Source: Sphingopyxis sp. OAS728 (lineage in GTDB: Bacteria > Pseudomonadota > Alphaproteobacteria > Sphingomonadales > Sphingomonadaceae). Taken from it: 64,000 nucleotides of DNA. The DNA is taken from assembly GCF_014873485.1 (NCBI RefSeq), contig NZ_JADBDT010000001.1, positions 2,294,001 to 2,358,000 of the forward strand. The letters run 5' to 3'. The position numbers and the translations under genes were made by a program. Shown in pieces: positions 58,075-63,502 of this stretch. The notes under the pieces are model-generated. The model did no database searches, was not told the DNA's origin, and worked only from the letters and a program-made list of their open reading frames with translations. Positions within the stretch are counted from its first letter, which is position 1; each line of letters starts with the position of its first letter.

Positions 58075-60654
<2,580 letters not shown>

Positions 60655-60659
60655 ACGAA

Positions 60660-60690
60660 AAGGGCGGCAGAGATGCCGCCCTTATTTATT
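60660..60690. terminator. bidirectional terminator, clpB / small-protein operon
   Basis: AAGGGCGGCA (60660-60669) and TGCCGCCCTT (60674-60683) form a perfect 10-bp stem with a GAGA loop, then ATTTATTTCC. On the minus strand TTTCG follows, so it can end both clpB and the minus-strand operon. Confidence 0.85.
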
Positions 60691-60703: not shown

Positions 60704-61036
60704 CTAGCAGACGGCGGTCGGCGGACAGCCGCTCCCCTTGCTGCCGAAATGCTCTACCGTTTCACGCGAGTCGCGATTTCCCTGCTCCCAGAGCCTTTTC
60801 CACTCATCGTTGGTGTGGCAAACGCGCGCCTTTTTGACGAGCGAGCCGATCTCCTCGATCTTCCGGCACTTGATAAAGTCGGGATGCGTGGGCGCGAGTC
60901 CGACATTGTACGCCTTGATCTCGCTACCAGTCATTGTCGAGGCGGGTCGACCGAGCGGCGGACGGCGGTCCGAGTCCTCGCCGGCAGCGGGCAGCGCGTA
61001 AGCGGCAAGGGTCAGCACCGACATCGTCCGGATCAA
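60704..61036 (-). CDS. small secreted two-Cys protein, paralogue A
   Basis: The last of four tandem paralogues. The mature core carries FIKCRKIEEIGSLVKK and RVCHTNDEWKRLWEQGN, shared almost residue for residue with paralogue B. The start is not ATG-clear. A TTG at 61036 has GGGAGG 5 nt upstream and yields LIRTMSVLTLAAYALPAAG, a better signal peptide than the ATG at 61024. It ends with an extra cysteine pair (GCPPTAVC). Function unknown. Confidence 0.7.
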   Translation of the reverse strand: MIRTMSVLTLAAYALPAAGEDSDRRPPLGRPASTMTGSEIKAYNVGLAPTHPDFIKCRKIEEIGSLVKKARVCHTNDEWKRLWEQGNRDSRETVEHFGSKGSGCPPTAVC

Positions 61037-61067
61037 CGGCCCCTCCCGTCGCGACCGAAACACCGCC

Positions 61068-61400
61068 TCAGCAAGTCCCTGTCGCGCGGCAATCGCCCGC
61101 CTTGCTCGAATAGGCGTCCATCGTGTCGCGCGAATCTTGGTTGCCTTGCACCCACAGCTGTTTCCACTGCTCGTTGGTGTGGCAGACGCGCGCCTTTTTG
61201 ACGAGCGATCCGACCTCCTCGATCTTGCGGCACTTGATGAAGTCGGGATGCGTCGGCGCAAGCCCCACGTTATAAGCCTTGATCTCGGTTCCCGTCATCG
61301 TAGAGGCGGGACGATCGAGCGGGGGTCGGCGATCGGTCGCGGCGACGGTCGTCGGTGTGCTCGACGTGGCGAGCGCGAGCGCAATCATCATCGTCAGCAT
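61068..61400 (-). CDS. small secreted two-Cys protein, paralogue B
   Basis: A 110-residue protein with a short signal peptide (MLTMMIALALATSSTPTTVAA) followed by RPPLDRPASTMTGTEIKAYN, FIKCRKIEEVGSLVKK and RVCHTNEQWKQLWVQGN. It ends in DCRATGTC. AAAGGGG lies 7 nt before the ATG. Very close to paralogue A, from which it differs mostly at the ends, so the A/B duplication is the most recent. Function unknown. Confidence 0.75.
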   Translation of the reverse strand: MLTMMIALALATSSTPTTVAATDRRPPLDRPASTMTGTEIKAYNVGLAPTHPDFIKCRKIEEVGSLVKKARVCHTNEQWKQLWVQGNQDSRDTMDAYSSKAGDCRATGTC

Positions 61401-61412
61401 GCTATGGCCCCT

Positions 61413-61766
61413 TTATTGCGGGCGAATCTCAGGCACCATGGTGCCCGGGGGCTCTTGCGAATTGCTCCAGCCGCGCGCCAGTATTTCCATCGAATCGCGC
61501 GCGTCTTGATTGCCCTTGTCGGTTACCCGTTTCCATTCGGCATTGGTGTTGCAAACGCGCAATTTCTTGACGAGCGATCCCGGCTGCTCGATCCGGCGGC
61601 AGCGGATATAGTCTGCGTCGGTCGCGACGCGACCTTGGTTATAGGCGTCGATCTCGGCGCCCGACATCTCTGACGGCGCCCGCCCCAGCGGGGTTTCGGT
61701 TTCGCCAGCGAGAGCGGGAGCTGCCGATATGCACGCCAGAGCCCCCAGGCAAACAAGTCTACGCAT
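61413..61766 (-). CDS. small secreted two-Cys protein, paralogue C
   Basis: A 117-residue protein with the signal peptide MRRLVCLGALACISAAPALAG. The core is diverged but aligned: APSEMSGAEIDAYNQG, YIRCRRIEQPGSLVKK, RVCNTNAEWKRV and GNQDARDSME. It lacks the C-terminal cysteines of A and B. AGGAG is 7 nt before the ATG at 61766. It is 12 bp from paralogue B. Function unknown. Confidence 0.75.
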   Translation of the reverse strand: MRRLVCLGALACISAAPALAGETETPLGRAPSEMSGAEIDAYNQGRVATDADYIRCRRIEQPGSLVKKLRVCNTNAEWKRVTDKGNQDARDSMEILARGWSNSQEPPGTMVPEIRPQ

Positions 61767-61797
61767 CGTCACTCTCCTACACCGGATCGCCGGGCGC

Positions 61798-62127
61798 TCA
61801 GTTCGACGAACTACCCCCGCCGCTCACAAATTGCTCGGTCGTGTCACGCGCATTCTGGCTGCTGTTCGCGATGACCTCTTTCCACTTTTCGTTCGTGTAG
61901 CAGGTGCGGTTCTTCTTCACGAGCGAACCGATTTCCAGCATCTTGCGGCACTTGATATAATAAGGGTGGGTCTGGGGAAGCCCCTCATTATACGCCTTGA
62001 TCTCGGTCGGCGTCATCGCCGATGGCGGCTTGGGCGGCGGTGCGCGATCGGCACCAGCTTCGGCAGCCAAAGCGGCCGGCGCGGCGAGCAGCGCGGCCGC
62101 GACGAATGCGGGCAGAATATGGTTCAT
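61798..62127 (-). CDS. small secreted two-Cys protein, paralogue D
   Basis: A 109-residue protein, first in the operon, with the signal peptide MNHILPAFVAAALLAAPAALAAE. A proline-rich linker (RAPPPKPPSAMTP) leads to TEIKAYNEGLPQTHPYYIKC, RKMLEIGSLVKK, RTCYTNEKWKEV and SSQNARDTTEQ. It ends in a Gly/Ser tail. TAGGAGG lies 6 nt before the ATG. Its better ribosome-binding site and first position suggest it may be the ancestral copy; this is inference. Confidence 0.78.
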   Translation of the reverse strand: MNHILPAFVAAALLAAPAALAAEAGADRAPPPKPPSAMTPTEIKAYNEGLPQTHPYYIKCRKMLEIGSLVKKNRTCYTNEKWKEVIANSSQNARDTTEQFVSGGGSSSN

Positions 62128-62244
62128 GCAATTCCTCCTACCGCGGGCCCCACCCGCAGCCTCATGGCGCCATCATATGGGGCATGGGGCCTTTCGCAAA
62201 GCTGAATTTCGGCCAGCAACAGGCGCCCCGAAGCCGCAGAAAGC

Positions 62245-63429
62245 CTAGCGCGGAACGGCATAACCCGACGCATCGGCCGACGCGAAATAGCGCTGGAGGA
62301 GATCGCGTTCGCGCTCGCTCAAATGCGGGTTCCAGACATCGAAGATCAGCACCGCGCGCAGCTCGTCGCTGTCGTTCCACGCCTCATGCTCGATCGTGTC
62401 GTCAAAGGCGAACGCCACGCCCTCTTCCCACGCACGCGTCTCTCCGCCAACCCGAAAGCCACAGCCTGGCGGAACGATCAGCGGCAGGTGGACGATCGCG
62501 CGCGTATTGGTGACGCCCGTGTGCGGCGGGATGCGCGTGTGCGGCTTCAACATCGAAAAAAATGCGCTCGGCGCCCGTCCCGGAATGCGCGCGCCCGGAA
62601 TCGCCGCGAGCGCAGCCGCCGTTACGGGGCAACGGTCGAGCACCACTTGGTTGGGTTCGCCATATTCCCAGAGGAAGCAGGCGCCCCAGTCGAGCCGGTT
62701 GTCGAGTCCGGACCAGATCGATTCGGGCGTCCCTGCATCCATCTTCACATAGGGCCGCAGCGCCTCACCCGGATCGTCGAGCAAGGCCTGCAACTCGGCA
62801 CGGATCGCGCCCGTTTGCGCCTCGATTTCGGCGAACCACTGGAAATGGCCGCGGTCGAAGAATTCGTCGGCAGGCAGGAAGGGATAATAGATGCCCGCGC
62901 ACTCATTTTGATAGATACGGCGGCGGCCGAGCGCGCTCGCAATGAAGACCTCGCCGCGGCGTGCCTCGGTTTCCGACAGGTCGCCCCGAACTGCCGCGAA
63001 CGCGCCCGACGCCGCGGTGAACATCGTATCGGTCGCCGCCGCGACAAAAGCCTGCCCATGCGCGAGTAGCGCCTCGAGCGGCGGCGGCACCGGATTATGC
63101 TGTGCGCCAAGCGCAATCGCCGCGCTCCACGCCGCGAGCGCGGCGCCCTTGTCGTTGCGTGCCTCATGACGTTCCGCTTTGCGGATCCATGCCATCAAGT
63201 CGCGACGATCGACCGCAAGGGCAGCATCGAGCGCTGCGAGTTCGCGCGCGTCATCGCCAAGCGCGCGCCATGCCGAGGCGAGGTTGCGTTGGAGCGCCCC
63301 CGAATGCGGATCGCCGGAAATCGCCGCCGCAAAATGCTGCGCCGCCGCCGCCGCGTCCCCGGCTTGCAGGGCTGAAATTCCAAGCCGATTTGCCTCGACG
63401 GATGAGGCGGGTGGAGGTGCGCTGGTCAT
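62245..63429 (-). CDS. TPR-aspartyl/asparaginyl beta-hydroxylase
   Basis: A 394-residue protein. The N-terminal ~110 residues are TPR-like (EANRLGISALQAGDAAAAAQHF, LQRNLASAWRALGDDARELAAL). The C-terminal 2-oxoglutarate/iron domain of the AspH/LpxO type has the first His in HTGVTNTRAIVHLPLIV, the GFRVGGETRAWEEG strand, and FDDTIEHEAWNDSDELRAVL with the second His and 2-oxoglutarate-binding Arg. It is expected to hydroxylate Asp or Asn in a protein or peptide, or a lipid acyl chain. The start is uncertain: ATG at 63429 or 63444, neither with a strong Shine-Dalgarno. It is divergent from a sulfotransferase gene. Confidence 0.85.
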   Translation of the reverse strand: MTSAPPPASSVEANRLGISALQAGDAAAAAQHFAAAISGDPHSGALQRNLASAWRALGDDARELAALDAALAVDRRDLMAWIRKAERHEARNDKGAALAAWSAAIALGAQHNPVPPPLEALLAHGQAFVAAATDTMFTAASGAFAAVRGDLSETEARRGEVFIASALGRRRIYQNECAGIYYPFLPADEFFDRGHFQWFAEIEAQTGAIRAELQALLDDPGEALRPYVKMDAGTPESIWSGLDNRLDWGACFLWEYGEPNQVVLDRCPVTAAALAAIPGARIPGRAPSAFFSMLKPHTRIPPHTGVTNTRAIVHLPLIVPPGCGFRVGGETRAWEEGVAFAFDDTIEHEAWNDSDELRAVLIFDVWNPHLSERERDLLQRYFASADASGYAVPR

Positions 63430-63502
63430 GGCTATGCTTGCCATCGGCGGGGGCAATCGGCAAGGTCGATTGATGACCCCGGAGCCTTCAATTGCTGCCA
63501 TA

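Follow-up and report, generated by a model that had tools for sequence, protein, structure and literature searches.

A tandem gene array in Sphingopyxis points to a widespread family of small cysteine-hairpin proteins absent from the searched catalogues

The four genes at positions 60704–62127 of the window (the whole stretch of 64,000 nucleotides from Sphingopyxis sp. OAS728 that was analysed) encode small paralogous proteins, and our searches strongly indicate that these belong to a large, widespread bacterial protein family that is absent from the catalogues searched. The layout of the family is likewise strongly indicated: a signal peptide, a low-complexity linker, a cysteine-bearing beta-hairpin with a basic loop, a long helix near a T-x3-W motif, and a variable tail. 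This anatomy is well supported; the function is something we infer.

The array and its gene products

The four co-oriented minus-strand genes are transcribed in the order D, C, B, A (Table 1). The original prediction described them as consecutive tandem paralogues, and this is borne out by the open reading frames, which are separated by gaps of 31 bp (D–C), 12 bp (C–B), and 31 bp (B–A). Core identities are 0.88 for A–B, 0.63 for B–D, 0.59 for A–C, 0.58 for B–C, 0.57 for A–D, and 0.49 for C–D, and the DNA itself forms a four-unit direct repeat (unit of 218 nt, 63–100% identity to one copy, spacing of 349–369 nt). Putative purine-rich ribosome sites lie ahead of the starts, clear for D, C, and A and weaker for B; the matching copy in another four-copy genome (G024) has ATG where gene A starts with the TTG at 61036. 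A consensus scan found four promoter-like sites in the array region, compared with 0.4 expected. Judged from related genomes, in which the genes are under purifying selection (see below), translation of the array is supported. Two additional tandem family copies are located elsewhere in the same genome (C1:66.3–66.9 kb).

Table 1. Features of the array and its flanks (window coordinates)
Feature	Position	Strand	Description
gene D	61798-62127	-	first copy, 109 aa, signal peptide, Cys60-Cys76 core
gene C	61413-61766	-	second copy, 117 aa, ATG start, signal peptide, Cys56-Cys72 core, longer tail
gene B	61068-61400	-	third copy, 110 aa, Cys57-Cys73 core and Cys104/Cys110 tail pair
gene A	60704-61036	-	fourth copy, 110 aa from TTG, Cys57-Cys73 core and Cys104/Cys110 tail pair; within the B group in the tree
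intrinsic-terminator-like hairpin	60660-60683	both	10 pairs, between gene A and clpB; consensus match only
sigma-70-type promoter-like site	62172-62199	-	9/12, between AspH and gene D; consensus match only
AspH	62245-63501	-	TPR and aspartyl/asparaginyl beta-hydroxylase domain (PF05118), directly upstream of gene D
clpB	58075-60654	+	convergent neighbour; marks the same chromosomal place across genera

Each protein had been credited with an export signal. Read by eye from the sequence, signal peptides are clear in C and D and weak in A and B, and export of the array proteins as a whole is probable. It is less certain for A and B than for C and D, because the N-termini of the former are hydrophobic with few or no basic residues. 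The claim that two cysteines occupy fixed positions holds for the core pair, which is found in all four proteins; A and B, however, have four cysteines, and their second pair, at residues 104 and 110, is absent from C and D. Two further cysteines encoded by gene C both lie inside its signal peptide.

Definition, predicted fold, and distribution of the family

The family is defined by the core C-[RK]-x5-G-[ST]-x7-C-x-T-x3-W, which is present in all four copies. Across 47 diverse cores, the C, G, and C are invariant, and the T and W occur in at least 90%. Structure prediction, proposed earlier as a check, was carried out for B and for the distant member P0159, and both are modelled as a hairpin followed by a helix. 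The AlphaFold model of B (97 sequences; pLDDT ~90 over residues 31–100) comprises a helix at 37–43, strands at 55–61 and 69–75, and a helix at 76–101; that of P0159 has the same layout, with strands at 47–53 and 61–67, a helix at 68–96, and a disordered linker ahead. In both models, the core cysteines are placed on facing, paired strands, from which a core disulfide is likely, as had been suggested. Foldseek and VIA-align comparisons of the B model with the PDB and with viral models returned no convincing relative, which is not proof of a new fold, and B likewise had no relative among PDB sequences (best E 1.2).

Further features emerged from the 371 members that fit the search pattern, a set that leaves out non-fitting members and is unweighted for relatedness. 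The loop between the core cysteines is 15 aa long in 351 of them and net basic in 366, with a mean of 5.0 K/R against 1.4 D/E. The tail contains no cysteine in 254 members, two in 115, and one or three in 2; this near-constant choice between none and two speaks for proteins that are exported and oxidised, with a single disulfide or a pair of them. Family members are probably Sec-exported. Several proteins carry two cores (P0217, P0226, P0254, P0257, P0225, P0240, P0190, P0205, and also P0219), and in the first eight of these SSSR in the leading core takes the place of the TGSR seen in the other.

None of the catalogues Pfam, NCBIfam, PHROGs, and PADLOC yielded an accepted match for A–D, in agreement with the earlier view that they are without annotated function. 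Scanning 120 relatives (120 listed of 229 hits) against Pfam and NCBIfam revealed no consistent family either; the best tallies were DUF3450 (6/120) and ICEA (5/120), with best E-values of 4.7e-4 and 1.3e-3. In the literature, listings with the openings of abstracts contained nothing that names a family with this core. The Pfam entry EF-hand_EFHB_C (PF25325) resembles residues 50–92 of A (19.9 bits) and 50–90 of B (16.8 bits); these matches fall below the curated 27-bit cut-off and were taken as chance, and the profile does not match C or D, nor is the hairpin and helix modelled for B a paired EF-hand. Among the PHROGs, a distant single-copy relative matches the C-terminal end of phrog_22439 (E 3.4e-4), and phrog_10583 is hit by B (E 0.04) and by A (E 0.15), but neither fits the array proteins well and neither has an assigned function.

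A few relatives carry the source labels UrcA, IalB, or RcnB, which we take to denote small exported proteins with cysteines, as in the array family. These labels were not supported by Pfam and NCBIfam profile scans: among the 120 relatives scanned, which include the labelled ones, none matched a model bearing such a name at E 0.01. P0159, labelled UrcA in UniRef, had 0 NCBIfam matches at this threshold, the presence in the library of the UrcA model (presumably TIGR04433) being unconfirmed; P0152, P0200, and P0218, labelled IalB by JGI, had no IalB match, and the presence in the Pfam library of that model (presumably PF06776) is unconfirmed as well.

Four relatives carry the family core behind a TonB C-terminal domain (PF03544), a domain that A–D do not have (L073:7614-9518 and L258; three tandem copies in G196, one in G833); PF03544 was scanned for one of these fusions, and the others were recognised by alignment and profile. 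We rejected the idea that such fusions are common. The fusion profile matched 143 of 199 genomes, but among the matches listed only G833 clearly spans both parts, a few (G159, G817, G878) end at profile positions 144–150, and the others cover the TonB_C part.

A search with B matched 27 of 60 genomes; every one of them is among the 36 Sphingopyxis genomes (own genome included), and none is among the 24 genomes from other families of the order. Ten of the 27 have three matches, two have four (G000 and G024), four have two, and eleven have one. A wider profile, in a search of the kind that the original prediction had called for in sphingomonad genomes, matched at least 85 genomes out of 196 sampled from the order. 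These belong to 27 of the 63 genera, and the matches listed all fall in Sphingomonadaceae. A core profile built from 47 rows matched at least 11 of 289 genomes in a sample of the class (eight outside Sphingomonadaceae) and at least 22 of 299 in a sample of the phylum (five outside the class), these counts being lower bounds since the large searches scored the best candidates per genome only; one of the 22, G633 from the same class, is a 62-aa frame and probably spurious. The family is frequent in Sphingomonadaceae and sparse elsewhere in the phylum. Several relatives from outside the class have lipoprotein-type signals, as read by eye.

Evolution of the tandem copies

In a tree of copies from 15 Sphingopyxis genomes (91 columns; bootstrap not fully settled), the copies sort by position. 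Those at C form one clade (98/95), the two A copies form one clade (100/98) inside the B group, and a single D clade is not rejected (AU 0.546). The tree supports the proposal that A is close to B and that C and D are more distant. Within positions, the median core dN/dS in Sphingopyxis is 0.14 for D, 0.19 for C, and 0.17 for B, and none of the 254 usable pairs exceeds 1. Diversifying selection, which the tandem amplification had been thought to imply, therefore finds no support in the proposed dN/dS comparison. Constraint is weaker in the signal region (dN/dS 0.24–0.52), where 10 of the 225 pairs usable at D, C, and B exceed 1. Within Sphingopyxis, D, C, and B each keep a distinct identity, and purifying selection acts on their cores.

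In their own genome, the A and B cores differ at dN 0.08 and dS 1.03; a dS this high despite the low dN means that A is not a fresh copy of B. The corresponding dS in G024 is lower (0.38), which may reflect gene conversion. Six metagenome clusters (P0057, P0060, P0066, P0070, P0073, and P0075) appear to join a B-type front to an A-type tail, an arrangement that would fit recombination between neighbouring copies or mixing during assembly. Of 67 tandem copies from genera other than Sphingopyxis, 33 have their nearest relative within the array they belong to (this test set two Sphingopyxis arrays aside), so that repeated local duplication or conversion fits only about half of them. A dosage role for the amplification, as originally suggested, is possible, but the separate position signatures across species fit specialised paralogues better than simple dosage.

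Chromosomal neighbourhood and candidate functions

Gene context was read in 80 stretches (60 of the order, 20 from beyond it), all from genomes with matches; tandem stretches of the order were taken first and some genomes gave several, so that the sample is not random. Genes were called with a custom ORF picker and identified through BLAST markers (a single receptor, a single clpB, and the like); some were overlooked in this way, AspH in L083 being one. Of the 60 stretches from the order, 42 lie in a neighbourhood marked by a TonB-dependent receptor (TBDR), AspH, sulfotransferase-like genes, or clpB, a class that requires one of five marker genes, so that counts within it are partly circular; one of the 42 (L165) was placed by a 44% clpB-like gene only. 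A further 13 are flanked by trmJ or nrdR on one side and rpsD on the other, and the remaining 5 are at other places. Outside the order, 18 of the 20 stretches lie elsewhere, 1 is beside a TBDR, and 1 falls in the trmJ group through a 35% trmJ-like gene only.

Upstream of the OAS728 array, beyond the end of the window, lies a gene for a 1061-aa TBDR. A same-strand TBDR occurs upstream within six genes in 36 of the 60 stretches from the order, compared with 1 of the 20 from outside it (BLAST marker), and none was found beside the trmJ–rpsD copies by the marker used. The 25 named loci are mostly from Sphingopyxis and were retrieved by patterns of the Sphingopyxis type; 24 of them have AspH immediately upstream in the same orientation, the remaining one ending at a contig edge, and 23 have clpB downstream, the exceptions being cut by contig ends. 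In other genera, the same neighbourhood contains a TPR protein with PF13759 (2OG-Fe(II) oxygenase), a second oxygenase with PF13640, and TPR-sulfotransferases with PF13469. Two Sphingopyxis genomes (G004 and G034) have a single copy beside clpB and no AspH match in the genome at E 1e-30, which indicates that AspH is not required.

Several loci depart from this pattern or add to it. In the own genome, a gene at L225:5180-6499 (+), which runs from about position 63179 of the window to past its end, is a neighbour conserved in many genomes; it had no Pfam match at E 0.001 and is labelled SulfT here for what we take to be a sulfotransferase-like motif in its product. In L158 (Sphingopyxis sp. PET50), the array is separated from clpB by two additional ORFs of 346 and 663 aa, possibly a mobile-element insertion, and the ORF picker reported clpB as two pieces. 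In L249 and L251 (G005 and G028), an opposite-strand, sulfotransferase-looking TPR protein replaces the array between AspH and clpB, and a relative of the array is located elsewhere in each genome. The array of G152, a Parasphingopyxis-type genome, contains a degraded-looking extra copy (L061:2187-2450).

The reading that we tentatively favour is that A–D are oxidised, cationic binding or adaptor proteins of the periplasm or outer membrane that probably serve the neighbouring receptor module. The binding or adaptor role is suggested by the probable export, the cysteine pairs, the basic loop, the long helix, the variable tails, and the specialised copies; service to the receptor module is suggested by the neighbourhood. 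The cysteines would be oxidised in the exported protein, which would act in the periplasm or at the outer membrane; the disulfide-held basic hairpin would dock onto a protein partner or an anionic constituent of the envelope, the long helix would pack or pair, and the variable tails would confer on each copy a specificity of its own. Three specialised copies (D, C, and B) and a fourth (A) derived from B would then most likely serve the adjoining module of TBDR, oxygenases, and sulfotransferases. The upstream TBDR in 36 of 60 stretches, the AspH gene in 24 of 25 loci, and the TonB_C fusions favour such a link. Against the binding or adaptor role stand a hairpin–helix fold without a solved relative and the weak signal peptides of B and A. 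The receptor link may also be merely a shared position, given the single TBDR among the 20 stretches outside the order, its absence from the trmJ–rpsD sites, and the single clpB-side copies in G004 and G034.

A general role in envelope stress or periplasmic protection, with small, basic, oxidised proteins made in quantity and tandem copies providing the dose, appears rather unlikely. It would suit an exported design with paired cysteines, the clpB neighbour, and the presence of tandem copies at two places, and EcfG-like sites precede slightly more genes than expected (3 of 122 upstream stretches with a strict and 4 with a loose pattern, against 0.9 and 1.2 expected). Even so, these are at most 4 of 122, and the same scan with simple consensus patterns found 2 RpoH-like sites where 6.1 were expected and no sigmaE-like site where 0.6 were expected, leaving little support for the envelope-stress factors of the original prediction; moreover, the copies are specialised by position rather than interchangeable, and clpB is convergent and lies beyond the terminator-like hairpin. 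We consider it quite unlikely that the proteins are substrates which AspH, other 2OG oxygenases, or TPR-sulfotransferases modify ahead of export, giving a TBDR-linked product that acts as a peptide signal or resembles a metallophore. The AspH gene directly upstream in nearly all named loci and the PF13759, PF13640, and PF13469 proteins nearby in other genera would agree with such a pathway. However, the one candidate residue, the Asn of C-x-T-N, occurs independently of AspH presence (Fisher p 0.74, 43 loci, in at least one of which, L083, the gene picker missed AspH), single clpB-side copies persist in G004 and G034 without an AspH match, and no modifying enzyme is marked beside the trmJ–rpsD copies.

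Secreted antagonism, with the cationic, disulfide-held hairpins serving as toxins, inhibitors, or immunity proteins directed at neighbours, is less probable still. The combination of such a hairpin with tandem copies presumably resembles antimicrobial peptides, but the core is under purifying rather than diversifying selection, the genes occupy fixed chromosomal places, and no immunity partner gene was recognised. B matched nothing in phage and plasmid collections, and PADLOC returned 0 matches for A–D, AspH, and P0159; the earlier suggestion of immunity proteins thus found no sign in its favour, and nothing marks the array as a known toxin, immunity, or defence system. Very improbable, finally, is mimicry of the TonB box, whereby the hairpin tip xxGS[L/R] would copy the VVTG[ST][L/R]I segment of the TBDR and bind TonB. 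The residue after G-[ST] does agree between locus mates in 36 R/R and 22 L/L of 72 pairs, and rare fusions to TonB_C exist; yet the L/L loci form a single branch of the TBDR tree, so that the match has about one independent origin, and the loops score 0.8–1.2 on a TonB-box profile, compared with 27.8 for TBDRs, values that 9–10% of unrelated 80-aa stretches reach. The tests have therefore weakened the hydroxylase-target, TonB-box-mimicry, stress-sigma-control, and mobile or defence readings.

Small exported proteins frequently go unannotated. The present family, found in at least 85 of the 196 genomes sampled from the order, recurs at two chromosomal sites and has a confidently predicted fold, yet none of the libraries searched contains a model for it; a curated model would annotate many orphan genes together. 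The neighbourhood of receptor, oxygenase, and sulfotransferase genes offers a concrete starting place in the search for its function. At its most specific, the binding or adaptor reading would make the family part of an unnamed TBDR accessory system of sphingomonads, in which proteins with interchangeable tails select or hold periplasmic cargo, one ligand or partner per tandem position. We regard this version as quite unlikely; if true, it would define an accessory system made up of a receptor, TPR-type oxygenases and sulfotransferases, and oxidised, cationic hairpin–helix proteins.
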